DNA from: Nocardia testacea NBRC 100365
GTDB taxonomy: Bacteria; Actinomycetota; Actinomycetes; Mycobacteriales; Mycobacteriaceae
Assembly: GCF_000308775.1 (NCBI RefSeq)
Contig: NZ_BAGJ01000272.1
Coordinates: 1-64,000, forward strand
Length of the DNA: 64,000 bases
Direction: 5' to 3'
This document shows, in pieces, positions 10,664 to 64,000 of this stretch. The notes below the pieces were generated by a model. It was not told the origin of the DNA and made no database searches. It worked only from the letters and a program-made list of their open reading frames with translations. A program made the position numbers and the translations under genes. Each line of letters opens with the position of its first letter. Position 1 is the stretch's first letter.

Positions 10664-10665
10664 AA

Positions 10666-13704: not shown

Positions 13705-13722
13705 AACGCATAGGCTACGTCC

Positions 13723-14379: not shown

Positions 14380-14424
14380 TCGCCGGCCGGGGACGGCCAC
14401 GGCCGCGTACCGTGCCGCCCGGGC

Positions 14425-14751
14425 TCAGCCGGCGGCGCGCTGATACGCCTCCAGCACGACACCGGGGATACGGCCGCGATCGGGTACCTCGTGCCCGTTG
14501 CGCCGCGCCCACTCGCGTACCGCTTTCGCCGATTGCGGACGGTCCGGTGTCTGTCCTTTCACCCGGCGCGGTTTGCCGACCCTGCGGGCGAATGGCACCC
14601 ATTTGTTGAGCGCCGCACGGAATTCCCGCGCGTTCTCCTCGGAAAGGTCTATTTCGTACAGCAATCCGTCGACTCCGAACGACACCGTCTCCGCCGCGAC
14701 GGATTCGCCGTCCAGATCATCGACCATCGTGACAACTACCCTGCGCGCCAC
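14425..14751 (-). CDS. lsr2: Lsr2, nucleoid-associated H-NS-like protein
   Basis: A 108-residue DNA-bridging protein that silences AT-rich, often acquired, genes in actinobacteria. The N-terminal beta/alpha oligomerisation domain starts [14 protein letters not shown]. The C-terminal DNA-binding part ends [19 protein letters not shown], with the RGR minor-groove hook at residues ~94-96. Start set at the GTG that gives M-A-R-R; a GTG two codons upstream is equally close to the ribosome binding site. The length matches the family. Nocardiae often carry several copies, so this need not be the main one. Confidence 0.9.
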
Positions 14752-15040
14752 ACCCACGTCCCTTCACTCACTACACCACCGGCCGACCCGGCACGCGACA
14801 CCGTACTGGTATCACCCACGAATACCGCCTCAGAAACGCTGAGAAACCAATGAGAAAGAGACACTTGGACTCTCGTCCGAATCCGCTGGAGGACGGCCAC
14901 GCCACCGGGAGGGTCTCCCGGCCGTCGTGGAGAGGATTCGGCGGTACCGTTGCCCGAGCCTCCTCCAGCGGCGCCGCGACGGGCCCCACCTGGGCATTCG
15001 GTGCCGGCAGGCGCGGGTCGCCGATGCTGCGCCGCACCGA

Positions 15041-15415
15041 TCAGCTCATCGGCGCACAGCCGGAGCCCGGTGGCGGCGGTTCGCGCAGGAATCGGAGCAT
15101 ACGCTCGGCGGCCTCGCGCGCGCTGTGCCCGTCCCACACGACCGGCACCCGCCGTTCCGGGATACGAAACAGCCCCCAGTGCCGCAGCCGGTAGTGATTG
15201 GCGATCTGCCCGGTCGGTAACGTCGCGTAGACGACGAACCAGCCACCGCCGAAACAGAGTTCACCGTCGCTGTGCCGGATACTCTTGTGCACGTCGTATC
15301 GGCCGCCGCGCGCCCATTCGTTGAACACGAGCGCGTTGTACAACATCCGATACTGGTACAGCTCGGCGAATGTGTGGACGCCGTCGCTGGTGTTCTCGTC
15401 CGCCTCGCCGGGCAC
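15041..15415 (-). CDS. Phage-type hypothetical protein (WDGH motif)
   Basis: A 124-residue protein with a compact conserved core: HTFAELYQYRMLYNALVFNE, then DVHKSIRHSDGELCFGGGWF and a late VVWDGHSAREA. Proteins with this FAELY...HSDGE...WDGH layout occur, as I recall, in actinobacteriophages and actinobacterial genomes without known function. GTG at 15415 has GGAGG five bases upstream, which fixes the start. It is divergent from the ADP-ribosylglycohydrolase gene with 67 bp between, so the two may share control. Confidence 0.65.
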   Translation of the reverse strand: MPGEADENTSDGVHTFAELYQYRMLYNALVFNEWARGGRYDVHKSIRHSDGELCFGGGWFVVYATLPTGQIANHYRLRHWGLFRIPERRVPVVWDGHSAREAAERMLRFLREPPPPGSGCAPMS

Positions 15416-15482
15416 GCCGCCTCCAGTTCGCTCGCTGTGGTGGTGTCGGGCCGAGTACCCGCTCCGGATACCATTCGACGCG

Positions 15483-16451
15483 ATGCACATCGACGCGATG
15501 CTCGATTCGCTGGACGGACTCTCCGTGGGGGACGCACTGGGGCAGCAGTTCCCCGTCATGCGCCGGTCCATCGACGATCTCCGGGCCGGTGAGCTGCCCA
15601 CCGAGCGGCACTGGGCGTGGACCGACGACACCGAAATGGCCTGCAGCGTGGTCGCCGAACTGCTGCGCAACGCGGCGATCGACCAGGATCGGCTCGCCGC
15701 CGCCTTCGCCCGCCGGTTCCGGCCACACCGCGACTACGGGTTCAACACGGTCGGCGTGCTGCGCCGGATCGGTGCCGGTGCGCACTGGCGGGACGCCGCC
15801 GGGGAGTTGTTCGAGGGCCAGGGCTCTCGCGGTAACGGAGCGGCCATGCGCGTCGCCCCGCTGGGGGCCTGCTTCGCGGGGGATCCCGCACGGATCGTCA
15901 CCGAGGCCGCGCGGTCGGCCGAGATCACCCATGCTCATCCGGAGGGTATCGCCGGCGCGGTGGCGGTGGCGCTGGCCGCCGGACTGGCCGCCCACACGCG
16001 ACGTACCGGCGTCCGGCCCGCCCCGGCCGAGTTCGTCACCGCCGTCGTGGACCGACTGGCAGACAGTGAGACGACCCGGCTGATCCGCCGGGCCGGGTCC
16101 ATGCTGGACGTCTCCGCTGCGGAAGCCGCGCACGAGCTCGGTAACGGCTCGCTGGTCACCGCGCAGAACACGGTGCCGTTCACGATATGGGTGGCGGCGA
16201 CCACCCTCGACGACTACCCCGAAGCGATCACCAGCTGTATCGCCGCGGACGGCGATATCGACACCACCGGCGCCATCACCGGCGGGATCGTGGCCGCCCA
16301 CACCGGAACCGTGCCCGGCCGGGCCGGCGCGGTCCCGCAACCGTGGCTCACCGCCCGGGAAACGCTACCCCACTGGTTCGACCCCGATCGCCGGCCGCCC
16401 CGCCCGAACGCCTTCGCCCGCATACGCCGCCGACTGTCCGGCGGCTCGTGA
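15483..16451 (+). CDS. ADP-ribosylglycohydrolase family protein
   Basis: A 322-residue all-helical ADP-ribosyl hydrolase. The metal-binding signatures are WTDDTE (46-51) and GDIDTTGAITGG (257-268), with the substrate loop GSRGNGAAMR (114-123). The DraG/ARH family removes ADP-ribose from arginine or other residues, or hydrolyses related nucleotides. No ADP-ribosyltransferase is seen nearby, so the target is open. ATG at 15483 chosen as it begins the first helix of the family; upstream ATGs are in the divergent promoter region. Confidence 0.9.
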   Translation: MHIDAMLDSLDGLSVGDALGQQFPVMRRSIDDLRAGELPTERHWAWTDDTEMACSVVAELLRNAAIDQDRLAAAFARRFRPHRDYGFNTVGVLRRIGAGAHWRDAAGELFEGQGSRGNGAAMRVAPLGACFAGDPARIVTEAARSAEITHAHPEGIAGAVAVALAAGLAAHTRRTGVRPAPAEFVTAVVDRLADSETTRLIRRAGSMLDVSAAEAAHELGNGSLVTAQNTVPFTIWVAATTLDDYPEAITSCIAADGDIDTTGAITGGIVAAHTGTVPGRAGAVPQPWLTARETLPHWFDPDRRPPRPNAFARIRRRLSGGS

Positions 16452-16533
16452 CGGCCGGTCGCGCGCACGTTCATCGACCGGTACCGATGGTGTACAGGCG
16501 ACTCGGTGCGCGGGCGCGGCCGTCCGGCGATTT

Positions 16534-16887
16534 TCAGTGGATATGGTTCTGCCAGTCCGCCGGTACCCGCTCCCGCGGGCCGGGCACCGTCTGCGAGGCC
16601 GGATGATCCCGGGGCGGAGCGAGTTCCGGTCCGGCCCCATACATCTCACCGGACCGATAGTCCCAGAACCAGTCCTCCCCCGGTTCGTAACTCTGCACGA
16701 AGGGGTGCCCGGTCGCGCTGAAATGCGCGGTGGCGTGCTGGGCGGGAGACGAATCACAGCAGCCGACGTGCCCGCACTGGGCACACCGCCGCAGATGCAC
16801 CCACCAGCCCCGCGCCTGTTCGCATTCGACACATCCCGGGCCGCTGGGCGGCACGGCCGGGTCGATACCCTCGATGGCCTGAGACAT
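16534..16887 (-). CDS. UBP-type zinc-finger protein
   Basis: A 117-residue protein with a ZnF-UBP fold: CVECEQARGWWVHLRRCAQCGHVGCCD gives the first zinc ligands, split here as CVEC, CAQC and CCD. HATAHFSATGHPFV then supplies the histidines. In eukaryotes this fold binds ubiquitin C-termini, and its bacterial role is unknown. It is common as a free-standing protein in actinobacteria. The second of two adjacent ATGs (16887) is six bases from GGAGG and is preferred. Confidence 0.85.
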   Translation of the reverse strand: MSQAIEGIDPAVPPSGPGCVECEQARGWWVHLRRCAQCGHVGCCDSSPAQHATAHFSATGHPFVQSYEPGEDWFWDYRSGEMYGAGPELAPPRDHPASQTVPGPRERVPADWQNHIH

Positions 16888-49337: not shown

Positions 49338-50552
49338 TTACCGACGTCGCGCGGCGCACCGACGATCACCGCCCCGGCTCGGTAGTTCCGGGCCCCAGGC
49401 CACTACCGGGCGTTGCGCGACGCCCACGTATTCGCTCAGCGGCCGGATCAACGCATTGGATTCGCCCTGTTCGATGATGTGGGCGGTCCACCCGGTGATC
49501 CGGCTCATGACGAATATCGGCGTGAACACCTCGATATCGAAGCCGAGCAGGTGGTAGGCGGGGCCGGTCGGGAAGTCGAGATTCGGCTCGATCCCGGTGG
49601 CCTCGCCCATGGCGCGCTCGAGGGCCTCGTACATACGCACCCACCGCTGCCCATCGGTGGCCGCGGCGATATCCAGGAAGGCCTGTTTCATGGTGGGCAC
49701 CCGGGAGTCACCGTTCTTGTAGACCCGGTGACCGAAGCCCATCACTTTCTCCTTCCTCGCCAGCTTGTCGCGCAACCACTGCCCGGCCAGCGCCGGATCA
49801 CCGATCTCGATCATGTGCTGCATGACGGCCTCGTTGGCGCCGCCGTGCAGGGGGCCTTTGAGCGCACCGATGGCGGCGGTGACGGCACTGTAGATATCCG
49901 AGAGCGTGGAGGTGACCACGCGGGCGGCGAACGTGGAGGCGTTGAAACTGTGCTCGGCATAGAGGATCAGCGAGACCTCGAACGCCCGGACCAGTTCCCG
50001 CGCGGGCACCGTCCCGAAGCACATGCGCAGGAAGTTCTCGGCGTAGCCGAGGTGGGAATGCGGCGCGATCGGGTCGAGGCCGTGGCGGCGGCGGTGATCG
50101 GCCGCGACGATCGTCGGCAGCACCGCGAACATCCGCAGCGCCTTGGCGCGATTGGCCCGCGCCGAATTGTCCTCCTCGGCGGGGTCCTCGGCGCCGAGGT
50201 AACTGATGGCGGTCCGCACGACATCCATGGGGTGGCAGGTGTCCGGCAACTTCGCCACCAGCGACAGCAACGAGCGGTCGGCGCGGCGCGCGGCCCGTTC
50301 CCGTTGCCGGAACCGTTCCAGCTCGGCGTCGGTGGGCAGTTCGCCGTACCAGAGCAGGTGCGCGACCTCCTCGAAACTGCAGTGGGCGGCCAGATCCTGC
50401 ACCGCGTACCCGCGGTAGGTGAGCGAGTTGGTTTCCGGCACCACCATCGAGATCGCGGTGGTGTCGACGACGACGCCCGCCAACCCCTTGTGGACGGTCG
50501 GTATCGCGGCCCCGGCCCCTATCGGATCGCCGAGCGACGCTGTGCTCATCAC
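49338..50552 (-). CDS. prpC: 2-methylcitrate synthase / citrate synthase PrpC
   Basis: A 404-residue citrate-synthase-fold enzyme. Active-site histidines are in AEHSFNAST and in GPLHGGANE, with GFGHRVYKNGDSR as the third site and DFPTGPAY near residue 329. PrpC joins propionyl-CoA and oxaloacetate; the actinobacterial enzyme is often bifunctional. The gene is last of prpD-prpB-prpC and overlaps prpB by ATGA. The C-terminal tail after ELPSRGGD is Arg-rich and longer than usual. Confidence 0.9.
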   Translation of the reverse strand: MMSTASLGDPIGAGAAIPTVHKGLAGVVVDTTAISMVVPETNSLTYRGYAVQDLAAHCSFEEVAHLLWYGELPTDAELERFRQRERAARRADRSLLSLVAKLPDTCHPMDVVRTAISYLGAEDPAEEDNSARANRAKALRMFAVLPTIVAADHRRRHGLDPIAPHSHLGYAENFLRMCFGTVPARELVRAFEVSLILYAEHSFNASTFAARVVTSTLSDIYSAVTAAIGALKGPLHGGANEAVMQHMIEIGDPALAGQWLRDKLARKEKVMGFGHRVYKNGDSRVPTMKQAFLDIAAATDGQRWVRMYEALERAMGEATGIEPNLDFPTGPAYHLLGFDIEVFTPIFVMSRITGWTAHIIEQGESNALIRPLSEYVGVAQRPVVAWGPELPSRGGDRRCAARRR

Positions 50553-51463
50553 TGGTCCTTTCCCAGAGTGAAATCGAATATGTCCGAGTCGAATTCGTTG
50601 TAACGCTGGTACCGCAGCAGGTCGTAGAGCCGGCTGCGGGGCTGCATACGGTCCAGCAGGCCGGACTGCGTGCCCGTGGCGTAGATCTCGCGCAGGCCCG
50701 CCTCCGCGGCGTACATCGCCAGGCGCAGCGTGGAAACCGGATAGATGACCACGTTGTAGCCGATCGATTCGAGGGTGGCGGCCGGGATCGGCTCGGATCT
50801 GCCGAACTCGGTCATATTGGCCAGCAACGGAGTGGTCACCGCGGCGCGGAATCGCTCGAATTCCGCGGGCGTGCGCAATGCCTCGGTGAAGATCAGGTCC
50901 GCGCCGGCATCGGCGTAGGCCCTCGCCCGCTCGATCGCCGCGTCGATCCCTTCGATCCCCGCGGCGTCGGTACGCGCGCAGATCACGAAGTCCGGATCAC
51001 GGCGGACCGACACGGCGGCGCGCAGCCGGCGGACCATTTCACCGGTCGGCACCACCGCTTTGCCGTCGAGGTGACCGCAGCGCTTCGGGTTGACCTGATC
51101 CTCGAGATGGCAGCCGGCGACCCCGGCATCCTCCAGGACGGTGACCGTCCGGGCGGCGCTCATCGGCTCACCGAAACCGGTATCGGCATCGATGAGGACC
51201 GGCAGATCGGTGACCCGGGCGATCTGCTGCCCCCGCCCCGCCACCTCGGTGAGCGTGGTGAGTCCGATATCCGGCAGTCGCAGTTCGGCGGAGAGCACCG
51301 CGCCCGAGATGTACACACCCTCGAAGCCGATCTCCTGGATCAGCGCCGCCACCAGCGGGTTGAAGGCGCCGGGGAAACGCTGGATCCGCCCGGAGGCCAG
51401 ACCGGCACGGAACGCGGCACGTTTGTCCGCCGCCGACGTCGACGCCGCGAGCAGACCGGTCAT
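50549..51463 (-). CDS. prpB: 2-methylisocitrate lyase PrpB
   Basis: A 304-residue member of the isocitrate lyase/PEP mutase fold. The catalytic KRCGH segment (residues ~126-130) and DADTGFG (~93-99, Mg-binding) are present. It splits 2-methylisocitrate into pyruvate and succinate. ATG 51463 overlaps the stop of prpD (ATGA) and its end overlaps prpC, so all three genes are translationally coupled. Confidence 0.9.
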
Positions 51464-52965
51464 CGGAACAGTCCCTTCGGGGAGCGCGGCGCGCGGGCGA
51501 GCACATCCGGCGATACGGTGAAACTCAGCTGCGGCAACTCGTCGGCGGACAGCTCCCCCGCGCGCTGCGCCACCTCGAGAAACCGGTCCTGTTCGGCCGG
51601 CTCGAGGACGCCTTCGGCGAGGGCCCGGAATTTCGCGAGGTACCGTTCGCGACCGAAGGGCCGCGCGCCGAGCGGGTGGGCGTCGGCCACGGCGAGTTCG
51701 CCGACAATCACCTCCCCGCTCTTCAGGGTGACCTCGGCGCGGGCGCCGAACGCTTTCTCGCGCGGATCGGTGGAGTGGTAGCGCCGGGTCCATTCCGGAT
51801 CCTCGGCGGTGGAGATCTTGCGCCACAGCTCCATGGTGTCGGGACGCTGCGCGCGTTCGGGCGCATAGGACCGCTCGTGGTGCCAGGTGCCGTCCTGCAG
51901 AGCCACGGCGAAGATATAGGGCACCGAGTGGTCCAGCGTTTCCCGCGACGCCCGCGGGTCGAATTTCTGCGGGTCGCCGGATCCGGTGCCGATGACCACA
52001 TGGGTGTGGTGGCTGGTGTGCAGCACGATGGAGGCGATCTGGTCAAGATCGCCGATCCGCTCGCGCATCCGGCGGGCGAGATCGATCGGCGCCTGGCTCT
52101 GGTACTCCGCGGAATGCTCCTTGGTGTAGGACTCGAGAATCGCCCGCTTGGGCTCCCCCGGGCCCGGCAACGGCACCGAATACTCGGCCTCCGGTCCCCC
52201 GAGCAACCAGGCGATCACCCCGTCCTCACCCTCCCAGATCGGGGCGGGCGCACCCTCCCCGCGCAGGGCGCGATCGACGGCCTCCACCGCCATCTTCCCG
52301 GCGAACGCGGGCGCGTAGGCCTTCCAGCTCGAGATCTCGCCCTTCCGCGACTGACGGGTCGCGGTGGTGGTGTGCAGGGCCTGGCCGATTGCCTGGTAGA
52401 CGGTCTCGGTCTCGAGTCCGAGCAGCGTGCCGATACCGGCCGCGGCCGACGGACCGAGGTGGGCCACATGATCGATCTTGTGCTCGTGCAGGCAGATCGA
52501 ACGCGCCAGGTCGATCTGGATCTCGTAGCCGGTCGCCAGGCCACGCAGCAGGTCCCGGCCGGTGCGTCCGGCATGCTGGGCGACCGCCAGGATCGCGGGA
52601 ATATTGTCGCCCGGGTGCGAGTATTCCGCGGCCAGGAAAGTGTCGTGAAAATCGAGCTCCCGTACCGCCACCCCATTGGCCCACGCCGCCCACTCCGGCG
52701 AGAACCGGCCCTCCACGCCGAAAACGGTCGCCCCCGGCCGGTAGGGGTGCGCCAACGCCTGGTCCCTGGCGGTGGCGACCGGGCGCCGGCTCAGTGCTGC
52801 CGCGGCGACGGCCGCATTGTCGATGATCCGGTTGACGATCATCTCCGCGATCTCCGGAGCGACCTCCACCGGATCGGTCGCCACCTCGGCGATCCGCCAC
52901 GCGAGATGTTGCTCGCGAGGGAAATGTTCCGCGGAACGGTGGGTACGGACGAGATGATTCTTCAC
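51460..52965 (-). CDS. prpD: 2-methylcitrate dehydratase PrpD
   Basis: A 501-residue protein of the MmgE/PrpD family: [39 protein letters not shown] (residues ~103-122) and [20 protein letters not shown] (split) match PrpD. It dehydrates 2-methylcitrate. It is the first gene of the operon. A run of TTCNGCAA-like half-sites lies 75-120 bp upstream, and the RamB/PrpR-type regulator gene is encoded beyond. Confidence 0.9.
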
Positions 52966-53039
52966 GGTTGGGCCTCCAGGCGATCGATGTAATTCGCTCG
53001 ATTCGCACGCTACCGAGGCTTCGGGATCGGGAAAATGGG

Positions 53040-53088
53040 TTGCAGAAAGCGAATTGTGCAGAACCGATTCTGCGAATTTGCGGAAGTT
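53040..53088. promoter_or_regulatory. Cluster of TTGC/GCAA half-sites before prpD
   Basis: TTGCAGAAAG, TTGTGCAGAA, TTCTGCGAA and TTTGCGGAA follow in close succession. RamB and PrpR regulators of propionate/acetate genes recognise TTTGCAAA-type sites, so these may be degenerate repeats of that operator. The promoter itself is not obvious. Confidence 0.4.
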
Positions 53089-53832
53089 GCGTAATCCCTA
53101 TAGGCGCCCGGACCTGCGCCGTCGCCGCCCGTAGGGGCCCGAGCTCACGTCCGGCACACCAGCAGAGCAAGACGAGAAACATCTGATTCAGCAGCCCGAA
53201 AGGATGTGCCTCGCCCGCCGAGAATATCTACAAAAGTTCTCGACAATTCCTGAATTCCCGAGATCGAGAATTGAGTCCGAACCGTTTCTGTAGCCATTCG
53301 GAAATGTACGAGAACCGGCCCGGAATTCCATCGGAGATTTCACAGCGCCGGTGTCGCCGGCTCGGCGCATGAACAGACAGGAGACAGTGCCGACGATGGT
53401 GGAAGAGCCCGTGCCCGCGGTCGCCGGCGGAGCCACCACGCCACCCTCCCCGGAGCCACGCCGCCGCAGATCCCCCGCACCGCACGGCCGCGGCCGGCCG
53501 CAACGCGGACGCCGACGGGCCGTTATGGCCAAGTGCTGATCCGGCGCATCATACGCCGTCCCCGCATGGCATCCACAGATCCCTGATCCCGTCGTTGCCG
53601 AAGGGCAGTCGGCCCTGCCGGGCCGGCGGCGGGGACTGGCGCTACCTGTCCCCGCGCCAGACCTGGACCGCTGCCTGGGTCACTGCCGCCCGAGCGGCGC
53701 CCATCCATCGATTCCCGGGCACCGGCCGCGCGGCCCACGGCCTTTCGCCCGACCCGACGCCCGTTCCCGGCAGACCGTGCAAACCTTCGCCACCCCGACG
53801 ACCACCGCCGGTTGTTCTACGGGGCAGCCACC
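53089..53832. other. Intergenic region between prp operator and regulator gene
   Basis: About 740 bp without a convincing gene. The longest plus frame (53351..53539) gives a Pro/Arg-rich 62-residue product with a GGAG nearby, but the composition is not protein-like. The regulator's stop is at 53833. Confidence 0.45.
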
Positions 53833-55260
53833 TCAACGACCGGTGCTCGCCGGTGCGTAGGGAGTGTTCGCCGGACGATTCTCGTCCGCCGCGAGCGGAC
53901 GACCGATCTGCGGGAACGCCCGTTGCGCGCACGCGGTGCGTTCACAGACCCGGCAGCCGGCGCCGATCGGGACAGCAACCGCCGCATCGTGCACGGGCAG
54001 CCCGTGCGAGTAGACGAGCTTCTCCGCGAAGGTGAGGTCACAGCCGAGTCCGACAGCGAAATGCCGGGCGGGCGCGAGATAGCCGGGGTTGCTCTCCCCG
54101 GTGGTGCGCGCCAGCCAGAGATAAGTGCGCCCATCGGGCATCTCGGCGATCTGCGTGCGGATCCGGCCCGGGGTCGCGAAGGCGTCGTGCACCACCCACA
54201 GCGGACAACTCCCCCCGACCCGCGAGAAATGAAAGGCCGTGGCGGACTGCCGTTTGGAGATATTTCCCGCCCGATCGGTGCGGACGAAGAAGAACGGCAC
54301 GCCGCGTTGCCCGCGCCGCTGCAGCGTCGACAGCCGATGGCAGACCGTCTCGAACCCGACCTCGAATTGCGCGGAGAGCAGGTCGATGTCGTAGCGCAAC
54401 CGCTCGGCCGCATCCAGGAAACGCCCATAGGGCAGGATCAGCGCACCGGCGAAATAGTTGGCCAGCCCGATCCGCAGCAACCGCAGCGACTCCGCCGGCA
54501 GCGTCCCGGTCTCCTCGAGCAGCTCGTCGAGCACCTCCGACTGGCTCAGGAAGGCCAGCTGCGTGGCCAGCTGGAACGCACGCTGCCCGGCGGTGAGACG
54601 CCGCGCCAGAGTGAGGATGCGGGCCCGCGGATCGTAGACGCGTTTGGGTCCCGGCCGGCCCGGATCTTCCGACCGGATCCGCACGGCCACCCCGAACTCG
54701 TCGCGCAGCAGCCGCGCCAGCTGCAGATCCAGCCCGCCCAGCGTGAACCCGCTCCGGACGAACAACTCCTCCGCCGCGGTATCCAGAGCCGGAATGTGAT
54801 TGCGCCGGTCGTAGAAGTAGTCCCGCACATCCTCATAAGGCATCGCGGCCCGCGGCGCCGCGGCCGGACCGTCGATCCCGGCAGTGAGGTGTTCCACCTG
54901 CTCGTCGGCCGTGCGCAGTCGCCGGTGCTGGCTGATCAGCAGCCGCGCCGCCGTCGGCGCCCGGCTCAGCAGATCGTCGAGTTCGCTACTGGTCACCGCG
55001 GCCGTCTCCGGATCCTCGGCGAACACTTCGTGCAGATCGGCGAGCAGCCGCGCATCGGTCTCCGGTGCGAAGAACCCCACCTCCAGATCGAAGGTCGAGG
55101 TCAGGCGCATCAGCACCGGCACCGTCAGCGGCCGCTGATCGTTCTCCAGCTGGTTCACGTAGCTCACCGACAACCCGAGCGCCTTCGCCAACCCGGACTG
55201 GGACAGCCCCCGCTGCTCACGCAGCGCACGCAACCGCCCCCCGCCGTACATCTTCTCCAC
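53833..55260 (-). CDS. RamB/PrpR-type XRE regulator (ScfR family)
   Basis: A 475-residue regulator. HTH near residues 8-40 (LREQRGLSQSGLAKALGLSVSYVNQLE, quoted in part). A central IrrE-like/ScfR region and the C-terminal cysteine cluster CRVCERTAC (~residue 445) resemble PrpR of mycobacteria, which binds a 4Fe-4S cluster and controls propionate genes. Position upstream of prpDBC supports the role. GTG at 55260 preferred; ATG at 55251 is possible. Much longer frames upstream are not coding. Confidence 0.85.
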   Translation of the reverse strand: MEKMYGGGRLRALREQRGLSQSGLAKALGLSVSYVNQLENDQRPLTVPVLMRLTSTFDLEVGFFAPETDARLLADLHEVFAEDPETAAVTSSELDDLLSRAPTAARLLISQHRRLRTADEQVEHLTAGIDGPAAAPRAAMPYEDVRDYFYDRRNHIPALDTAAEELFVRSGFTLGGLDLQLARLLRDEFGVAVRIRSEDPGRPGPKRVYDPRARILTLARRLTAGQRAFQLATQLAFLSQSEVLDELLEETGTLPAESLRLLRIGLANYFAGALILPYGRFLDAAERLRYDIDLLSAQFEVGFETVCHRLSTLQRRGQRGVPFFFVRTDRAGNISKRQSATAFHFSRVGGSCPLWVVHDAFATPGRIRTQIAEMPDGRTYLWLARTTGESNPGYLAPARHFAVGLGCDLTFAEKLVYSHGLPVHDAAVAVPIGAGCRVCERTACAQRAFPQIGRPLAADENRPANTPYAPASTGR

Positions 55261-56337
55261 CGCCGGCACCTTTCCTCGCAGGACGACTGACAGACATCGA
55301 ACCGTCCGATACGGCGGTCCGCACGAAAACGACAGCGAGCCCGGGCCGACAGCACCCACCCGTCCTCCTGTGCGCGGAGCCACGGCGGCGCGTTCGCGTT
55401 CGCGCGGAACAACTTCGACGACGCCGGCACAGCGCACACTCCATCGGTAGCACCAACGACCACCACCCCTGCGAACGCGCGCGACCCACCGCACCCGGCC
55501 GGATACGTGGAACGCCGGCGTAACGCCCGATCCACGAGGCGACAGCCGCCGGACACGGCGTGCCCGGCACAACCGGCAGGTCTTCGGACTCACGGGCACC
55601 GACCACACTCGGCCGACCCGGGTCCGCACCCGGGCTGCTACTACCACGCCGTCGCTTCCCGGGCCCCAGCCCAGTGCATGTGACGGCGGTCGCTCCCGCT
55701 CACCGCTGCGGGACAGTCCCGGATTCCCACCGGGTTCCCTCTCACCCCGCCGTGCGGCATCACCGATATCGCACGTCGGGCTTCGACATCCCACGCCTCT
55801 TACGCGGCGCGAGATGAACCAGCTGCACGCGCCAGGATATGCCCGGCCCGACCCGCACTCCAGTGGGGCAACCGGCACGGCAGAGCAACGGCTCGGGCCG
55901 GTGTTTCGACCGGACGAGGTGCGATACCGGCAGCGGACAGCGAAACGCCGCCGGGCGTGCGGCCCAGCGGCGTTCGGTCGGGATGTCGGCGTCCCACAAG
56001 CGCCTCTCGGCGAGTGGTCGCTCGTAGCGACAAAGGGGTGAGGCCCGGGGCTGTCCGGACGCCGACACGGGGTTCAACAGGGACAGCCGGGGAGCTATTC
56101 CACCAGGCGGGTGACGTCGGCCACGGGGGTACCCATCGGTCGGTCGAACGGCCCCCGGCCGGACACCACTGTCGGTGGCGACCGACTGCGGCCGCAGTAC
56201 GCCCGAGCCGAACTCGTGGTGCGCGGCACGCGGCCGATGAGCGGATGGAAAACCAACAACACCCCGCTCGAGCAGCCGATTTCCTCTCTCGAACACCTCT
56301 GAGGTAATCTCATCGAGCGCCGGAACACACGGCGCAA
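55261..56337. other. Long intergenic stretch before tRNA-Pro
   Basis: About 1.1 kb with no gene I can support. The frames present are Arg/Pro/Ala-rich and change strand and frame without homology. It may be old decayed DNA next to the island boundary. Confidence 0.45.
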
Positions 56338-56411
56338 CGGGCTGTGGCGCAGTTTGGTAGCGCACTTGACTGGGGGTCAAGTGGTCGCAGGTTCAAATCC
56401 TGTCAGCCCGA
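56338..56411 (+). tRNA. tRNA-Pro (anticodon GGG)
   Basis: Acceptor CGGGCTG pairs with CAGCCCG (56404-56410), and the D-arm GCGCAGTTTGGTAGCGC is canonical. The anticodon stem CTTGA/TCAAG encloses CTGGGGG, giving anticodon GGG. The T-arm carries GGTTCAAATCC. No CCA is encoded. The tyrosine integrase remnant immediately downstream suggests its 3' end served as an attachment site. Confidence 0.95.
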
Positions 56412-56415
56412 CAAA

Positions 56416-56451
56416 GAAAACCCCTCCTGACCAGCGGCCGGAGGGGTTTTC
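56416..56451 (+). terminator. Rho-independent-like terminator after tRNA-Pro
   Basis: GAAAACCCCTCC (56416-56427) and GGAGGGGTTTTC (56440-56451) pair exactly over a 12-base loop with a T-rich 3' side, ending the tRNA transcript. Confidence 0.8.
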
Positions 56452-56510
56452 TTGTTGTAGTGACCTGAGCGTTTCCCGCACGATCTCACAAAAATCTCAC
56501 GTTTTCGCCC

Positions 56511-56899
56511 CTACCGGCCCCGCGCCCAGCGCTCCAGAACCTCCCGATTTTCGGGCACGGTCTCGGGGATATCGATGTAGTGAGCCTTGACCACCGCGCG
56601 AGTATTGCCGAGCTGACGGGCCGCGCGCTCGGGCCCGACGTAGGCATGGTCGACGGCGGTCGCCGCGCCCTTCCGAAGGGGCGCGGGCGTGACCCAGGCG
56701 AGGTTCTCGCCGCTAGCAGCACGCCAGGTGCGGCCGAAGTTGTTGGGGGTTGCGCAGCGGGCCGTTGCGCGCCGGGAACAGCAGGCCCGGGGTTCGCGCG
56801 ACTGGGGGTGGTGATCACCTGGCCGGGAGCGTGCTTCTCGAACGGGAGGAGCTCCACGACAACAGGCAGCACCATATGCCGGTAGGCCGGTCTTCGCTC
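56511..56899 (-). pseudogene. Frameshifted tyrosine integrase remnant
   Basis: Read on the minus strand with frame changes, the region gives YRHMVLPVVVELL, then LLFPARNGPLRNP, then (after a shift) ENLAWVTPAPLRKGAATAVDH, GPERAARQLGNTRAVVKAHY and IDIPETVPENREVLERWARG followed by TAG. These match the C-terminal half of phage or ICE tyrosine integrases, with the catalytic Tyr in AHY and the arginine of the RxxH-like pair altered (PLRKG). At least two frame shifts and no N-terminal domain: inactive. It lies 60 bp from tRNA-Pro. Confidence 0.75.
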
Positions 56900-56920
56900 A
56901 ACTGGACCCCACATTCCGGA

Positions 56921-57808
56921 TCAGGGCCCCGCCGGCACGCCACCCGAGCATGCCTGGGAGGTGCCGGTCGAGGGCCCGGGGAGGAACGTGCCTTTGTCCA
57001 GGATGCTTTCGACGGCGTGGCTGTCGGCCCGGGTGAACCGGCCGTGCGGCAGTGGTACTCCCAGGGCCGAGGCCAGCTCCGGGAGTTTGACGTCGGTCAA
57101 CGCTTCGACGAGGAGACCGAGTTCGGCGGCCGCGCGGCGAGCGGCGATCCAGGCCGAAAGGTAGAGAGCGGCTCCGACTGTGGCGGCCGGCCACCACAGT
57201 AGTCCCAGAGCCAAGTAACCGAGGGACCATGCGGCCCGCACCGAGGCCGCGGTGTACCGGTCCCAGGCAAGCTGGACGGGGACGCGTTGGCTGTCGTCAC
57301 ACAGGTGCCACAACCGGGGCCAGACCCGGACCAGCGCCACCTGATACTGGGCGTCCACCCGCTTCTCGGCAAGCAGCAGGTGGTCTCCGATGCGGGTCGC
57401 CCGTTCGGGGAGGTAACCGGCGTGATGGTCTGGCGGGGCCGCGTTTTCGGCCTGCCGGATCCGTCGGCGGCGGGCGCGGCCCAGCAGCTTGCCGCTCAGC
57501 ACGCCACGTCCCAGCCACAGCCGGGCGATGAGACGGCTCAATTCCGCAGCAATGCCGGCCGAGGCTGCCGCGGTGAGCGTCACCAGGGCGGCGAGCACCA
57601 GCCGGTGTGGGGTGCTCGCCAACCATCGGGGCGGCGCCTGATCCAGTCGGCCGCTGAGCAAGGCCGGGTCGAGGGCATGCGCCGCGCCGAGCGAGTGCAG
57701 CCACCAGGACAGCGCCAGCGTCAGTGCGAAAAGGAGGCCGGGTAGTGCGAGCAGAGTGATCCACCGCTCGGCGAACTTGGAGCCCAGGCCGGTGAGAAGG
57801 CCGTCCAT
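56921..57808 (-). CDS. Membrane protein of the CHAT locus, unknown function
   Basis: A 295-residue protein. Two N-terminal helices (residues ~18-38 and ~68-90) are followed by an Arg-rich cytosolic segment (LLGRARRRRIRQAE) and a middle region (DAQYQVALVRVWPRLWHL). A further helix pair lies at ~200-230, with a soluble tail. I know no domain name. It sits 12 bp from the next gene in the same strand and is oriented with the CHAT gene. The final ~25 residues (SGGVPAGP end) look like readthrough into the island edge. Confidence 0.65.
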   Translation of the reverse strand: MDGLLTGLGSKFAERWITLLALPGLLFALTLALSWWLHSLGAAHALDPALLSGRLDQAPPRWLASTPHRLVLAALVTLTAAASAGIAAELSRLIARLWLGRGVLSGKLLGRARRRRIRQAENAAPPDHHAGYLPERATRIGDHLLLAEKRVDAQYQVALVRVWPRLWHLCDDSQRVPVQLAWDRYTAASVRAAWSLGYLALGLLWWPAATVGAALYLSAWIAARRAAAELGLLVEALTDVKLPELASALGVPLPHGRFTRADSHAVESILDKGTFLPGPSTGTSQACSGGVPAGP

Positions 57809-57820
57809 GACGCGCGCCGC

Positions 57821-58255
57821 CTAGGGGTCGAGTCGGTAGGTGGCGGGCTGCAGCGGACGGTCGTCGAGGTGACACCACGGCTCGCGCGCGTCCTGGTCAC
57901 GACCACGCGGTGGACAGAGGGCACGCGGACAATGGAAGCGCTGCCCGATCGGACGCGAGTCCCATACGTCCCGCAGGGGCAATTCGCCGGACCCGCGCAC
58001 CGTGCCGGAGGCGTCCAGCAGCAGGGCCGCCAGCGCCTCGGTGGCAGGTCGCCCGTCCCGTACAGCCGTCACCTGGGCTTCCAGCTCCGGCCGCCAGCCG
58101 TATCTGTCCGCTTCGGCGCGCAATAGCGGTAGTCGCTCGCAGAACCAGGCGTGAGCCAGTGTGGGGTCCTGCGGCGGCGCGCTCGACTCGGCGGGAGGCG
58201 GCGGGGCGGAGGCGGGTTCGTCCTGGCGGGCTCGTCGCCGGAAAAAGGAGGGCAT
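57821..58255 (-). CDS. Cys/Arg-containing small protein of the CHAT locus
   Basis: A 144-residue soluble protein: Pro/Ala-rich residues 1-30, then a helical domain (AWFCERLPLLRAEADRYGW) and a C-terminal segment with HCPRALCPPRG and PWCHLDD, which may bind a metal. I do not recognise the family. It lies between the membrane protein and the CHAT protein in one operon, 29 bp downstream of the CHAT stop's neighbour region and 12 bp upstream of the next gene. Confidence 0.6.
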   Translation of the reverse strand: MPSFFRRRARQDEPASAPPPPAESSAPPQDPTLAHAWFCERLPLLRAEADRYGWRPELEAQVTAVRDGRPATEALAALLLDASGTVRGSGELPLRDVWDSRPIGQRFHCPRALCPPRGRDQDAREPWCHLDDRPLQPATYRLDP

Positions 58256-58284
58256 ACGTCAACTCTGCACCAGCACTGGCTATT

Positions 58285-61116
58285 TCAGGGACCGATATGC
58301 ACGAAGGGGGCCCAGCGGGCGGGGTCGGCCCGGTATTTTTCGCGCAGCCGGCGCTGCGCGTGATGGAGTGCCACTGCGGGGCCGCATCTCCCGGTCAGCA
58401 CTCTGCGGTAGAAGTCGTCGGCGACCGTGGGCCCATCCGCGCTGTTGATCTGCCACATGGTCCCGATCACGTGGGAGAAACCGTTCAGGTGGAACGCCGC
58501 GGCCGGATGGAGTACCTCGTCCGCCGCCCGCGCGTCCGGGAGCGCAGAGACACAGGCCGACAGGAATGCCAGCCGCTCACCGGTCAGGTTCATATTCGCC
58601 AGTTCGTCCAGGCCGAGAGGCCCGTCGTGCAGGATCAGGCCGCTCTCGTCGCCGTGGCAGGCGAAGTGAACCCAAGGGTATTCGGACAGCGCGGCCCGTG
58701 CCGCGGCGACGGTGAGCTCCTGCTCACCCAGGGTCCTGGCTGCGGGGAACCGGGCCGAGACGATCGCCGCCTCCTCCTCGGCGTGCTCGAGTTCGGGCAT
58801 GCCGGGGGTCTTGCGCAGCGAGGCGACCAGCATCGACGGAGGCCGGGTGGGAATGACGACATCCGACCCGGCCCGGTGGGCGTCTCGTAATGCCCACAGG
58901 CTGGGGGTATAAGAGGAGACGACATGGTCGATCAGTGCGGGGCCGTGCTTCTGATCGTGGTGGCCTGCCAAGTGCAGGGGAATGGCGGCCAACGGGCCGG
59001 TCGGGCACCACCAGACCCGGCGGTCCGGGCCAAGATACGGCTCGACCGCCTCGAGAACAGGAGCGGCGACGGTGTCCCAGAGGAGGCGGGCCAGGGCGAG
59101 GGCATTCATACCCCTGATGGTGGGGGTGAGCAGACCGCCGGCCCGCGCGGCCAGTTCGGCATGGTCCGCCAGGGGCAGCCCTACTCGTACCGGATCACGA
59201 TCGGCCGATACGACGATCGCGGCGCAGCCTGTATCGCTGATGTTGACGATGACGACGGGCCCGCCGCGGGCCGCCTCCCGCAGGTCGGAGAAGCTCATCC
59301 GCCGGCCTTGACCGTGTTCGGCTGTTACCCTTTCCCATTCGGCGGCCAGCTCGGCACGCGCCGTGGCCGCGCGGTACCCGGACAACACATCGCGGCCTTC
59401 CGCGCCGGAATAGCCGGGCCTGTCCAGCTCACTGCGCAGTTCCGCCAGCCGGGCCGACGCTGCGCCTGGCGCTTCGGTCCGGCGCAATCGGCGGGTCTGC
59501 GACCAGATGACGGTCCGGCTCAGCTCCAGCAATTCCACGGCCCGGCCGACCTGGCCCATGGACAGCGCGATGTCCGCGACCGATGGTGGTGACAGAGCCT
59601 GGGTGCCCAGCACCACTTTCCGGTCATGAAGGCTCAACCCGAGGGAGGCGGACTGTTCGGTCAGCATCAGGGCACGCTCGTAGTAGGAGAGAACCGACTC
59701 GTGGTCTCCGTCCAGGGCGAGAACGGCTCGGAACAGGGCGGACACGACGTTCAAGGGAAAGGACACATCCGGCATTGCGTCCACCGTGTCCAGCAGGTCC
59801 GCCACCAGCGCACGCTCCGGCCCGTCCTGCCACGTCGGCTCCTGGACGGCGGTGACCAGCAACATCGTCAGGCCTTCTGCGGCATCCGTACCCTCGGCAG
59901 CCAGGTCCCGGGCCGTCGCGGCGGCCTCCGTCAGATCGCTGCCGTTCGCCACCGCGCGGTGCCGGAGCACCAGCGCCCAGATCAGCGCGGACGACGGACC
60001 GGCCGACCGGAGTGCGTCGATTGCACGCGACAGCGTGGCCACATCCGCCTGCCGCTCGTATTGCTTGACCAGAAGCCGGCCGAGGACCCCACCCGCAGTC
60101 TCCGCCGGAAGCACGACGGCGGCATGCTCGGCCAAAGCGAGGGCCCGGACGAGATCGGCGTCGTCGGCGGCGGGGTCTCGTGTGTGCCGCAATCCCAGAG
60201 CCCAGGCGAGGGTCAGCGCGATCGCGGCACGCGCATCGCGCCCGGCGAGAACCGGGGTGCGGCGGTGGAGTCCCTCCAGGACCCGCAAGGCCGTGTCCAA
60301 GTGCGGACTCGCCTGGGTGCGGTGATACTCGGTCACCAGGGCATCGGCAACGACCAGACGCATCTTCACGTGTACCTCCCACAGCGGACTGAACCGGAAC
60401 AGCCGGCCCGGCTCGTCCAGCCGAGGAATTCGGTCCACTGTGCGCAGGACGCTGTTCCAGAGTTCGTCGTGAGGGCGGCCCGCATCGATGCGCAGCAGCA
60501 GACCGAGCAGTACCTCTTCCCGGTACGGCCGCTCGGCGATCTCCTCACCCAGCTTCAGGACCTCCCGCGACAGCGCTTCCCGGTCTCCCTCCTTCTGCAA
60601 CCGCAGGAACCGACGCCCGTAGCGCAGCAGACGGCCCAGGTGGTCCGTCAGCCAGGGGCCGGTCACGAGGAGGAACGCGGATGTGGCAGTGCTCAGCGAG
60701 CCGAAGAACCAGAAGAACGGACGGTCGGCCACCAACCAGTGGGACAGATTGCTACCCATCGGCACGCCCGCCACCCGATCACGGAAAAGCAAGAGCAGCA
60801 AGACCGCACACCACGGCGCGGCGGCCCAGCCGAGCGCCCCGACGGACAGTGCCACCGGACGCTCCCGCCAGGCCACCAGGCCGATGCGGATATCCTCTCG
60901 GTGGCCCTGGAGCACTCCTGCCATCAGCAGCGCGAGGGCCAAGGCGACCACGGGATAGAGGAATTGACCGGCCCCATTGGTGGTCAACGACTTGGACACG
61001 CCCGTTTCGGGGTCGTAGTACAACACGAAACGAAGCCCTTGCCGCTGTCCGAGCCACCACCCCCACCCGGCCATCCCGGCGCCACCGATGACGACCGCCC
61101 CGCTGAGCCACCGCAT
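58285..61116 (-). CDS. CHAT-domain (caspase-like) protein with N-terminal membrane helices
   Basis: A 943-residue protein. Four hydrophobic helices lie within residues 1-175, a long alpha-helical repeat region (TPR-like) spans ~185-600, and a C-terminal CHAT domain covers ~650-943. The CHAT catalytic dyad is visible: H821 in VHFACHGD and C855 in LAFLSACVSAL. CHAT proteases are clan CD peptidases like caspases and gasdermin-activating proteases, often in defence or programmed-cell-death systems. ATG 61116 chosen to include all four helices; longer frames lack domain support. First gene of a three-gene operon. Confidence 0.85.
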   Translation of the reverse strand: MRWLSGAVVIGGAGMAGWGWWLGQRQGLRFVLYYDPETGVSKSLTTNGAGQFLYPVVALALALLMAGVLQGHREDIRIGLVAWRERPVALSVGALGWAAAPWCAVLLLLLFRDRVAGVPMGSNLSHWLVADRPFFWFFGSLSTATSAFLLVTGPWLTDHLGRLLRYGRRFLRLQKEGDREALSREVLKLGEEIAERPYREEVLLGLLLRIDAGRPHDELWNSVLRTVDRIPRLDEPGRLFRFSPLWEVHVKMRLVVADALVTEYHRTQASPHLDTALRVLEGLHRRTPVLAGRDARAAIALTLAWALGLRHTRDPAADDADLVRALALAEHAAVVLPAETAGGVLGRLLVKQYERQADVATLSRAIDALRSAGPSSALIWALVLRHRAVANGSDLTEAAATARDLAAEGTDAAEGLTMLLVTAVQEPTWQDGPERALVADLLDTVDAMPDVSFPLNVVSALFRAVLALDGDHESVLSYYERALMLTEQSASLGLSLHDRKVVLGTQALSPPSVADIALSMGQVGRAVELLELSRTVIWSQTRRLRRTEAPGAASARLAELRSELDRPGYSGAEGRDVLSGYRAATARAELAAEWERVTAEHGQGRRMSFSDLREAARGGPVVIVNISDTGCAAIVVSADRDPVRVGLPLADHAELAARAGGLLTPTIRGMNALALARLLWDTVAAPVLEAVEPYLGPDRRVWWCPTGPLAAIPLHLAGHHDQKHGPALIDHVVSSYTPSLWALRDAHRAGSDVVIPTRPPSMLVASLRKTPGMPELEHAEEEAAIVSARFPAARTLGEQELTVAAARAALSEYPWVHFACHGDESGLILHDGPLGLDELANMNLTGERLAFLSACVSALPDARAADEVLHPAAAFHLNGFSHVIGTMWQINSADGPTVADDFYRRVLTGRCGPAVALHHAQRRLREKYRADPARWAPFVHIGP

Positions 61117-61182
61117 ACGGGCAGTATGGCAAGAAGCCCCGCCGGCAAGGTAGTCCTGATCCGGCTCGAACTTCGCCCCTGA

Positions 61183-61390
61183 CGGGCCGGCAACTACTGC
61201 AACGGAACCGACGACGATGGACGCAATACCTACAACGTCCTCGACATCACCCTCGCCGACGGAGCCCCACCGCCCCACGTCGGTATCGAACGCAACTTCT
61301 ACACCACCTCGTCGGGCGGGGTCTGTGGCAAGACATCGATCGAGGCCGTCCGGTTGCGGACTGCTGCGACCTGCCGGCCCGTCGTGACGA
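61183..61390 (+). pseudogene. Fragment of FdhD (formate dehydrogenase sulfur-transfer protein)
   Basis: About 65 codons read [18 protein letters not shown], then [19 protein letters not shown] and IEAVRLR. This is the central part of FdhD, which needs SSCGVCGK for persulfide transfer. Here the first cysteine of that pair is Gly (SSGGVCGK). There is no start, and both ends are missing. The fragment lies between the CHAT operon and the next gene and probably marks old chromosome or the edge of a deletion. Confidence 0.7.
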
Positions 61391-61487
61391 AGCCGCATCC
61401 ACCATGTCGAATATCAGCGGGCCGCCAGGTCGAGCAGTCCGTGCGGCCGGGGTCGGTTGCTGTTTCGCCGACGCGCCCGCGATCGGG

Positions 61488-62291
61488 TCACAGGAATTCG
61501 GCGAGCACCTGGTTGAACCGCTCGGGCTCCTCGGAGAACGGGGCGTGACCACTGTCCGCGAAGCGTGTAACGGTCGCGTCGGGCAGTTGCGCGGCGATCC
61601 ACTCGTCGAGCGGGCCGGGGAAGATCTTGCTCTGGGCGCCGTACACCAGCAGGGCCGGCACCGCGACCTCCGGCAGGACCGCTCGAAAATCGGCGAAGGC
61701 CATGTCGTACCAGATGGCACAGGCGGCAGCCGTGGACATCTTCATTGTTTCCGCGTAGATCGCGTCGATCACGTCCTCGGGCGGCGTCTGCGCGAAACAC
61801 GCCGCGATGAACGGCTTGATCACCAGCGGGCGGGCGTGCCGGACGGTTTGGACGAACAGCGCCAGGTCATTGTCCGAATAGCCGCCCTGCAACGGGAATT
61901 GCCAGTCCGGACCGTCCAGAAAACGCGGCGACTGGTCGATGAACACGACCGAACGCAGGTTCGCGCAACCGAACTGCTGCACATACGCGAGCGCGACGGC
62001 GACCCCCATCGACCATCCGGCCAGCGAGATTTGCTCCAGCCCCAGGTGTGTGATCAGGCCCTGCACATCCCGGGCGTACTGGGCAAGCGTATGCCCGTCG
62101 TCGGTTTTACCCGAGGAACCGTGCCCGCGCAGATCGACCGTGATCACCCGGTGCTGCTCGGCAAGGGCGGGCACATTCTGCGCCCAGAAGGTGGAGTTCA
62201 TGGTCCAGCCGTGGATGAGCACGACGGGTCGGCCGGAGCCGTGGTCCTCGTAGTACAGCGGCACTCCGTCGGGCAGTTCCAGGTACGGCAT
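61488..62291 (-). CDS. Alpha/beta hydrolase (haloperoxidase/esterase-like)
   Basis: A 267-residue hydrolase. HGW (27-29) forms the oxyanion side, GWSMG (92-96) carries S94, and DSGHAPF near residue 246 the histidine. YAQ-type esterases and non-heme chloroperoxidases share this layout. It is divergent from a GAF-domain regulator, which is its likely controller. ATG 62291. Confidence 0.85.
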
Positions 62292-62490
62292 CGATACCTC
62301 CGGTTCGTGGGTTGGGCTCCCACAATGACCGGCCCCCGCCTGCCGGCCCAGCACCGGCCGCACGGTTGCAGCAACGTTGCAACGCCGTTCCGGGCGTTTG
62401 TCCACCTTCCCGCTCCGTGCTATTCCTCATGGGACGCACCGGCAACGTGATCGCCGCCGGGCGCGGATCGCACTATTCCGAGGCAGGCGC

Positions 62491-63780
62491 ATGGTGGGGA
62501 CAGGAAAGAGTCGGACGGTGCGCCCGGACGTGCGGGCTTCGTGGGACCGGGCCCGGCATCACGGTCTGCATCCGGATCGACATCTACCCGAAGTGCGGCT
62601 CAGCACCGCCGAACTCCGATCCGGGCCGCGCGATCGGCGCCTGGTCGCGGCGTGGCCGGTAGTGTTCGCGAGCCTGGAGGCGGCGGCCACCGAACCGGGT
62701 CATGTCCTGTTCGGCGGCGACGCGGAGGGGCATCTCCTCTGGGTCCACGGTGACCCCCCGGCCCGCCGGACCGCCGAACGCGCCAATCTCGTACCAGGTG
62801 CGCGCTGGCACGAAACCGAGGCGGGCACCAACGGAGTAGGTACCGCACTGGCGCTCGGCCGGGCTTTCCAGGTACGCGGACCCGAGCACTATCTCTCGGT
62901 CGCCGCCGATTTCACCTGTACGGCCGCACCGATTCGCGATCCGCGCAGCGGCGCGGTGATCGGTGTCGTCGATGTGACCTGCCGGACGAGCAATACGAAC
63001 AAATTGGCCATGCCGCTGGTGACCGCCGCCGCGCGGCTGGCCGAAGCCCATCTGCGTGAGCTGGCCGGACGCCGTGACGCCGAACTGCGGACCCGCTATC
63101 TCGATCGAGTACTACAGCGATCAGGTGATCTCGGGGCGCTGATATCACCGGACGGCCAGGTCCTCTACGCCGCTCCCCCCGGCTGGCTGCCGTCGGTGTG
63201 GCCCGGACCGGTCCGGGACGGTGAGATGGTGCTGCCCGGCGGTCGCCGGGTCGTGGTGGAACGGCTGGCGCCGGACGGACCGTACGCGGTCCACGCACTG
63301 TCCGAGGACGCCACCGAGCAGGTGCCGCAAGTGGTCGCGCTGGGCCGCAACCGGGTCGCGTTGTGGATGGACGGCGTAGTACATGAACTCAGTCCGCGGC
63401 ACAGCGAGTTGCTGGTGTTGATGCTGGCACGCCCGACGGGTTCGACCGCGGCGGACCTCGCCGAGGGTCTGTACGGCGACAACGGCAAGACGGTGACCGT
63501 ACGCGCCGAACTCGCGCGCCTGCGCCGCATTCTCGGCTACCGCCTGGCCTCCGATCCCTATCGGTTGAACCCGCGGATCTACTGCGAGCTCCTTGCTGCG
63601 GTGTGTGACAACGGTTCCGCCGAACCGTCCCGAGGCGGCACCGAAATGCTCGCGGGCTCCACCGCACCGGGCATCCAACGGCTACGGCAGCGTATCCACC
63701 TCCGGGCCCCGGGCCCCGACAGGACGCACCGACCGGCTGAGCCGAACAGCACTGCGCACCCCAGCGCGATTCCCCAGTGA
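62491..63780 (+). CDS. GAF-domain transcriptional regulator (AcoR/MimR N-terminal type, without AAA domain)
   Basis: A 429-residue regulator. The opening VRASWDRARHHGLHPD matches the start of AcoR/MimR-type activators, and WHETEAGTNGVGTALA is the GAF sensor segment (~residue 108). Unlike sigma-54 activators it lacks an AAA+ domain. Instead residues ~305-370 form a winged-helix DNA-binding domain (SPRHSELLVLMLARPTG then VTVRAELARLRRILG). The last ~50 residues are low complexity. It is divergent from the hydrolase gene across 200 bp. ATG 62491. Confidence 0.8.
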   Translation: MVGTGKSRTVRPDVRASWDRARHHGLHPDRHLPEVRLSTAELRSGPRDRRLVAAWPVVFASLEAAATEPGHVLFGGDAEGHLLWVHGDPPARRTAERANLVPGARWHETEAGTNGVGTALALGRAFQVRGPEHYLSVAADFTCTAAPIRDPRSGAVIGVVDVTCRTSNTNKLAMPLVTAAARLAEAHLRELAGRRDAELRTRYLDRVLQRSGDLGALISPDGQVLYAAPPGWLPSVWPGPVRDGEMVLPGGRRVVVERLAPDGPYAVHALSEDATEQVPQVVALGRNRVALWMDGVVHELSPRHSELLVLMLARPTGSTAADLAEGLYGDNGKTVTVRAELARLRRILGYRLASDPYRLNPRIYCELLAAVCDNGSAEPSRGGTEMLAGSTAPGIQRLRQRIHLRAPGPDRTHRPAEPNSTAHPSAIPQ

Positions 63781-64000
63781 ATACCCGTGTCGACCGCGAC
63801 GAATACGGCGTCCGCGACGGCGCGAGCGGCAAGCACGAGCAGACTCTCGGCATCGTGCACGAAACAACCGCCGATGTCCTTCTTCCTGCATCGCGTCGTC
63901 CTTTGACCACCTCGCCGGAGCAATAGACGCGGCCTGCGGAAGTACCCGATGACAGCCGCCTGCTCGGCGCGTCTGCATGCGGGCGTATCCGGCCGGTGTC
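63781..64000. other. Right edge of window, no supported gene
   Basis: The last 220 bases hold only weak frames. A minus-strand frame that overlaps the end of the GAF gene has one hydrophobic stretch but no reliable start. Any gene here continues outside the window. Confidence 0.4.

Follow-up and report, generated by a model that had tools for sequence, protein, structure and literature searches.

To our knowledge, few CHAT proteases have a known substrate. Csx29, the TPR-CHAT protein of type III-E CRISPR systems (Craspase), cleaves the product of an adjacent gene, Csx30, and this cleavage relieves the inhibition of a sigma factor, according to the accessible part of the report (PMC10028731). 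CHAT proteases also cluster with fungal gasdermins and activate one of these, as stated in the available portions of two papers (PMC10197012, PMC12881547). In the two-gene systems of Kaur et al. 2020, a caspase-superfamily peptidase is coupled to EACC1, which the accessible text describes as a single transmembrane (TM) helix with short extensions (PMC7159879). Here, we describe a three-gene cassette from Nocardia testacea NBRC 100365, which codes for a CHAT-family cysteine peptidase, a small zinc-ribbon-like protein and a multi-pass membrane protein. It is located in a stretch of 64,000 nucleotides (positions 1 to 64,000 of contig NZ_BAGJ01000272.1), referred to as the window. A full-text literature search (titles and abstract starts, with few subscription papers or bioRxiv preprints covered) returned no description of this trio.

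As the initial annotation had noted, the three genes are encoded on the same strand. On the minus strand, the order is CHAT peptidase (943 aa, 58285..61116), small protein (144 aa, 57821..58255) and membrane protein (295 aa, 56921..57808). The trio is not a chance arrangement, because its three-gene order recurs in other Nocardia at 75-87% protein identity. Three other Nocardia carry the same cassette with a DNA identity of 82-84%. When window positions 50001-64000 were compared by blastn with the loci from N. sienata and N. fusca (L005 and L006, 14.8 kb each, in which the cassette is flanked by about 6 kb upstream and 4.7 kb downstream), one match was obtained for each, covering 56969..61136 and 56963..61136 (minus strand), respectively, both at 84%. 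Between N. sienata and N. fusca, the sole match is the 4.2-kb cassette (89%). The fourth cassette copy, in genome G340, matches at 82% over 3.8 kb and is ended by a contig edge. The gene that adjoins the N. sienata trio has a match of only 56% in the genome of the window. Since homology is limited to the cassette and since neither 14.8-kb locus contains a tRNA gene, the cassette is the unit, not an island at the tRNA-Pro gene described below. Genome comparison shows that the trio is a single conserved module that moves horizontally, being found in many soil bacteria and on plasmids.

The families are distributed as follows (all genome counts of CHAT relatives, at E 1e-10, and of membrane-profile matches include the genome of the window). 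CHAT relatives were found in 31/150 Nocardia and 37/296 Actinomycetia genomes, and the membrane-family profile matched in 30/148 and 29/296 genomes, respectively. In a draw of 396 genomes from the phylum, six had the membrane family (own genome included), the single one outside the class being a weak match (E 3.7e-9). Among Nocardia genomes, 27 have both families, 3 the membrane family only, 4 CHAT only and 114 neither (Fisher p 4e-22, with an approximate total, as the draws comprised 150 and 148 genomes, and with related genomes that are not independent). The corresponding numbers for the class are 20, 9, 17 and 250.

Gene linkage was analyzed at 37 class sites with flanks outside the own genome (L095-L131; CHAT frames at E 1e-5, fragments counted). 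A CHAT frame is present at 26/37, a small-profile match immediately upstream of the membrane gene at 23/37, and both at 22/37. One site has the small gene without CHAT (L116), and four have CHAT without a small-profile match (L119, L122, L123, L125). Most of the small proteins from class sites were part of profile building, and therefore 14 Nocardia loci outside the build were also examined. In 10/14, the small gene is directly upstream (the others are L199, L207, L208 and L210). Over everything scanned, small-profile matches stand directly before the membrane gene in 29/30 and 21/21 cases. In Nocardia, 27/35 membrane-gene matches are within 6 kb of a CHAT match. The linkage persists through four arrangements: same-strand in either order, divergent and convergent. 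Distance matrices from 23 loci are correlated (membrane-small r 0.94, membrane-CHAT r 0.85; 0/5000 permutations as high), a signal that still contains shared species history. The neighbourhood comparison, a check that had been proposed initially, found the three genes conserved together across genomes.

The CHAT domain (PF12770) covers the C-terminal residues 674-942 of the peptidase, with a Pfam E of 1e-38 (133.9 bits, cutoff 24). The dyad predicted initially, H821 and C855, is intact, and the active site is not degenerate across homologues: both residues are retained in 28/28 aligned CHAT domains (36 frames were found; the window's own duplicate and eight partial or weak frames were excluded). 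The domain is preceded by a middle region and by N-terminal hydrophobic segments. Four N-terminal helices had been claimed; simple hydropathy detects clear segments beginning at residues 51 and 92 and a less pronounced one beginning at residue 134, and a fourth is not obtained. The proteins from the window, L005 and L006 have a cluster of hydrophobic segments at the N-terminus, and the truncated L134 shows one segment. Among the other 28 CHAT frames scanned, 21 lack hydrophobic segments and 7 have one to three isolated ones. The notion of a membrane-bound CHAT protease therefore holds for this Nocardia clade and not for the other CHAT frames scanned.

Pfam reports no TPR or other repeat in the middle region of the window protein. 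Among relatives, TPR_10 is found at E <=1e-8 in L097, L102, L106 and L182, at 0.0035 in L095, and not in L108 or L114; two CHAT relatives carry a TPR-S sensor domain. A NACHT domain was found by Pfam neither in the window protein nor in seven other CHAT proteins scanned. A sequence-profile search of the PDB with the CHAT protein gave nothing at E 0.01. Beside divergent membrane-family genes in L122, L123 and L125, there is a short subtype of CHAT with frames of 443-467 aa. Each of these membrane genes is preceded by a differing frame with a Cys-containing tail that is missed by the small profile.

The small protein has a proline-rich start, a helical middle and a C-terminal zinc-ribbon-like motif, F-x-C-P...C...P-x-C. 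In the family, C109 and C128 are invariant (29/29), and P110 and P126 are nearly so (28/29). A third cysteine occurs in 18/29 members, and at least three cysteines are found within the last 50 residues in 20/29. From this pattern, we consider the C-terminus likely to be a zinc ribbon, albeit a degenerate one. None of the 29 members has a hydrophobic segment. The AlphaFold2 model has a mean predicted local distance difference test score (pLDDT) of 69; its best Foldseek match is at E 6.6, and PDB profile matches of the family are limited to E 0.04-0.6. The protein has no match in Pfam, NCBIfam, PADLOC or PHROGs. When a single sequence was used as query, 3/251 genomes of the taxonomic family were hit (own included), and the other two (E 7e-4 and 9e-4) were judged to be chance matches.

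The membrane protein consists of two hydrophobic halves. Hydropathy and the alignment of 31 family members place a conserved block between them, P-T-x-x-G...Y...W-P-R-L-W...R (P134, T138, G141, Y155, W163-P164-R165-L166-W167 and R175). It is modelled by AlphaFold2 as all-helical, without a strand of at least three residues (mean pLDDT 82, predicted template modelling score 0.72). A PDB sequence-profile search with the family gave nothing. Structural comparison of the model with the PDB gave no confident fold match (best Foldseek E 0.33; VIA-align Z <=5.9 over 85 residues), and we read the VIA-align match as a common helical arrangement. Both partner proteins of the window are without a match below E 0.05 in Pfam, NCBIfam and PADLOC, and eight distant members of the partner families have Pfam matches of E 0.03 or weaker only. 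They had been called unknown partners, and no named family was found for either of them in these three databases. No relative of the membrane family was detected in viral contigs, and the Nostoc member introduced below has no match among phage records. Solo membrane-family members occur in one genus of the class (g50; L128, L130, L131). In L131, the preceding gene encodes a kinase-like protein whose acidic tail ends in EEW, and in L128 and L130 the membrane gene is preceded by acidic tails of the DDDW type.

The module is also found on plasmids, where the small profile matches at 5/8 loci (L182, L184, L185, L186, L190). A Rhodococcus opacus plasmid has the order small-membrane-CHAT, annotated as hypothetical, hypothetical and CHAT. 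A Streptomyces plasmid has CHAT-small-membrane; the motif of its small protein is recognized by eye and is under the profile threshold. On a plasmid of S. goshikiensis, the small and membrane genes come first, then a repeat-like protein encoded separately (recognized by eye and unmatched in Pfam) and CHAT. The conjugative plasmid of Nostoc sp. C052 carries a small and a membrane gene, and then a 1557-aa protein with the domains Peptidase_C14-NA-iREase1-NACHT-WD40. The Nostoc small and membrane proteins are 23% and 22% identical to the window pair, and the membrane protein is 40-44% identical to the Rhodococcus member and to those from L095-L104 and L106. At this one locus, another caspase-superfamily protease with a receptor-type region occupies the position of CHAT.

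A tRNA-Pro gene (anticodon GGG, 56338..56412, plus strand, called by ARAGORN) and an integrase relic are situated outside the trio. The tRNA had been correctly identified initially, and the locus had been described as anchored to it. This description was abandoned, because homology in N. sienata and N. fusca stops at the edges of the 4.2-kb cassette, which is sited elsewhere in both. The 3' end of the tRNA occurs as a single copy in the window, with three mismatches allowed, and the 274 contigs of the genome contain no second copy in full. The three best partial matches were considered as attachment site copies and were rejected, being intact genes for tRNA-Pro(TGG), tRNA-Met and tRNA-Pro(CGG). 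Direct repeats of 56300-63999 are short imperfect pairs only. Relatives of the hydrolase that flanks the cassette were found in 15/118 Nocardia (own included). Because none of the 14 other 3.8-kb loci contains a tRNA, there is no clean empty site among them. In the genus, the tRNA-Pro is nevertheless an integration site. The DNA around it matches at 92-93% in genomes G334 and G297, and G334 (taken as N. sienata) has an element resembling an actinomycete integrative and conjugative element (AICE) at the same tRNA (L180 about 5376-16864, which is contig C3:75375-86863). It codes for a phage-type integrase, a pSAM2-type RepSA, FtsK/SpoIIIE and DUF2637, and the tRNA 3' end is repeated at a distance of about 11 kb. 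Partial matches to the tRNA 3' end were also seen in other Nocardia (G355 C1:6630583 and 6735702; G351 C1:4045107, 4057989 and 4061747), with a spacing of 4-105 kb. These may represent stacked insertions at tRNA-Pro or other tRNA genes.

An inverted repeat (56414-56453) follows the tRNA; compared with its own minus strand, this stretch gives an 80% match. This is consistent with the terminator postulated there; a consensus terminator scan has no entry at this position. The integrase remnant (56514..56744, minus strand) represents the C-terminal 77 codons of a phage-type tyrosine integrase. It was picked by eye after the three minus-strand frames of 56413-56920 had been translated. It matches 14 phage records, of which 13 are Gordonia phages (best E 4e-9, 43% identity; top rows annotated as tyrosine integrase). 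It has no plasmid match and no match in eight Nocardia loci, and Pfam finds nothing in the 128-aa reading around it. An integrase had been reported as frameshifted; the remnant is indeed present and is a degraded relic rather than the product of a single frameshift.

The ATG of the CHAT gene at 61116 is preceded by CATACT (61123..61128, minus strand), at a distance of 6 bases. Hexamer and spacing are identical in the window, N. sienata and N. fusca, and CATACT may be the -10 element of a leaderless promoter. A longer CHAT frame starts at 61398. This is probably not the true start, because DNA homology to N. sienata and N. fusca extends no further than 61136 and CATACT-N6-ATG is common to all three, and the start at 61116 is favoured. 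Beside the cassette (61488-63780), there is a divergent gene pair for an alpha/beta hydrolase (minus strand) and a GAF-domain protein (plus strand), both assigned by Pfam. The hydrolase relative and the trio are on different contigs in G297 and G334. Just before the tRNA (53833-55878, minus strand), a frame has HTH, Peptidase_M78 and ScfRs domains (Pfam; short-chain acyl-CoA regulator type). It has a 91% relative in G340 and a partial relative (89%) in G334.

The reading that we consider most likely is that the CHAT protein is a sensor-protease whose action on the small/membrane pair disturbs the membrane, in analogy to protease-gasdermin pairs and with unrelated partners. We propose this tentatively and give it close to even chances. 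The sensor-like middle region would detect a cue and switch on the CHAT peptidase. The activated peptidase would then cleave the small protein, the membrane protein or both. The freed pair would change the membrane, resulting in permeability, arrest or death, and the module might serve in defence. By extension, the pair could be an unrecognised membrane effector module that differing sensor-proteases control, namely TPR-CHAT in the case of actinobacteria and caspase-NACHT-WD40 in that of a cyanobacterium. Such a pathway would be inflammasome-like, with an effector unrelated to gasdermin; this we regard as possible and rather unlikely.

Several observations weigh against the proposal that the protease acts on the pair. 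Within the stretch examined, no CHAT frame accompanies the pair on two Streptomyces plasmids (L185, L190) and at one chromosomal locus (L116). At ten of the 37 class sites, the membrane family is without either partner by profile (L107, which is ended by a contig edge, L118, L120, L124 and L126-L131), and in four Nocardia genomes CHAT is present and the membrane family absent. The exchange for a caspase-NACHT protein is seen at one locus (n=1), and the distance-matrix correlations (23 loci) contain the species history noted above. In the Foldseek and VIA-align comparisons, the membrane model has no counterpart among known pore-former folds. Finally, there is no sign of residence in a defence island, because PADLOC families (E <=1e-8) are not in excess: there are 22 among 109 proteins neighbouring the trio (of 115 called, 20 trio loci) and 25 among 110 control proteins (of 203 called, 20 control stretches, 19 from trio genomes), with genes called by a simple GC-frame script. 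For the trio itself, no PADLOC model was found below E 0.05. The initial annotation had suggested a new conflict system. The conserved trio and the dyad kept in the aligned homologues do not contradict this; the neighbours show no excess of PADLOC matches, and a role in conflict would be a matter of interpretation.

An alternative is signalling by regulated proteolysis, as in Csx29/Csx30. The membrane protein would tether the small zinc-ribbon protein as a regulator, and cleavage by CHAT would free it to change gene expression. This would fit the position of the small gene directly before the membrane gene in 29/30 and 21/21 cases, the membrane-small distance correlation, which is the strongest of the pairs (r 0.94), the ribbon-like C-terminal motif as the conserved part of the small protein, and the Csx29 precedent, as far as the accessible part of that report goes (PMC10028731). 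Pfam, however, recognizes neither a DNA-binding domain nor a sigma factor in the partners, and conservation of the ribbon does not extend to its further ligand positions, only the 20/29 members noted above having at least three cysteines in the last 50 residues. We consider this alternative unlikely.

The roles may also be reversed, with the pair as sensor and CHAT as effector. The membrane protein would report envelope or phage-entry stress via the small protein as adaptor, and the protease would cleave other targets in the cell. In favour of this, the pair is constant while the protease varies between CHAT and caspase-NACHT-WD40 (at one locus). In addition, the protease of the window clade has hydrophobic N-terminal segments and would therefore sit beside the membrane protein. 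However, sensor-type regions (TPR, TPR-S, WD40) are present in several of the proteases themselves, and the pairs at L116, L185 and L190 have no CHAT frame in the examined stretch. On balance, the reversed roles are unlikely, too. That the three genes are functionally unlinked cargo of a degraded element beside tRNA-Pro, as the adjoining integrase relic might suggest, is highly improbable and is contradicted by conserved synteny, as the trio is also seen at other genomic sites and on plasmids, with several gene orders and in more than one family.

For the action of the sensor-protease on the pair, which we favour, the trio provides two candidate substrates for a widespread CHAT subset. If the pair indeed damages membranes upon cleavage, it would be a non-gasdermin executioner in protease-driven bacterial cell death. 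It would also link TPR-CHAT and NLR-like (nucleotide-binding leucine-rich repeat) receptors via shared effectors.

With respect to known systems, Csx29 is the sole NCBIfam match of the window CHAT protein at E <=1 (NF041237, E 6.8e-6). Csx29 is a CHAT cysteine peptidase whose gene, like that of the trio, adjoins the genes of partner proteins, and it contains repeats, as do several CHAT relatives from other loci of the trio. The match, however, has 25.2 bits, well below the 300-bit cutoff; the partners here are without a match below E 0.05 in Pfam, NCBIfam and PADLOC; and one of them is a multi-pass membrane protein. In type III-E systems, Csx29 is neighboured by Cas7-11 and Csx30/31. Pfam was applied to the trio and to five further stretches. 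It finds a ScfR-like regulator, a hydrolase and a GAF protein as nearest neighbours. In VMAP or iSTAND ternary conflict systems, the peptidase is accompanied by a MoxR ATPase and a vWA protein.

In bacterial and fungal gasdermin-protease pairs, a protease gene, sometimes CHAT with repeats, is likewise clustered with a membrane-acting partner, according to the available parts of the reports (PMC10197012, PMC12881547). In the trio, however, the membrane partner is predicted to be all-helical and matches no PADLOC model below E 0.05, and there is a third, zinc-ribbon-like protein. The N-terminal domain of gasdermins is beta-rich.

The EACC1-caspase systems also combine a caspase-superfamily peptidase with a short membrane-linked component, and a trio of the present kind is not described in the accessible part of that paper (PMC7159879). 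Unlike EACC1, the small protein of the trio has neither a Pfam match nor a hydrophobic segment (29/29 members), and the multi-pass membrane protein is separate. Bacterial NACHT and antiviral STAND (NLR-like) proteins are resembled by the Nostoc Peptidase_C14-NA-iREase1-NACHT-WD40 protein in the place of CHAT, whereas the window protein is a CHAT protein without a NACHT domain in Pfam. The small and membrane families are undescribed, and the system is of a known kind, a caspase-superfamily protease with a membrane-linked partner.

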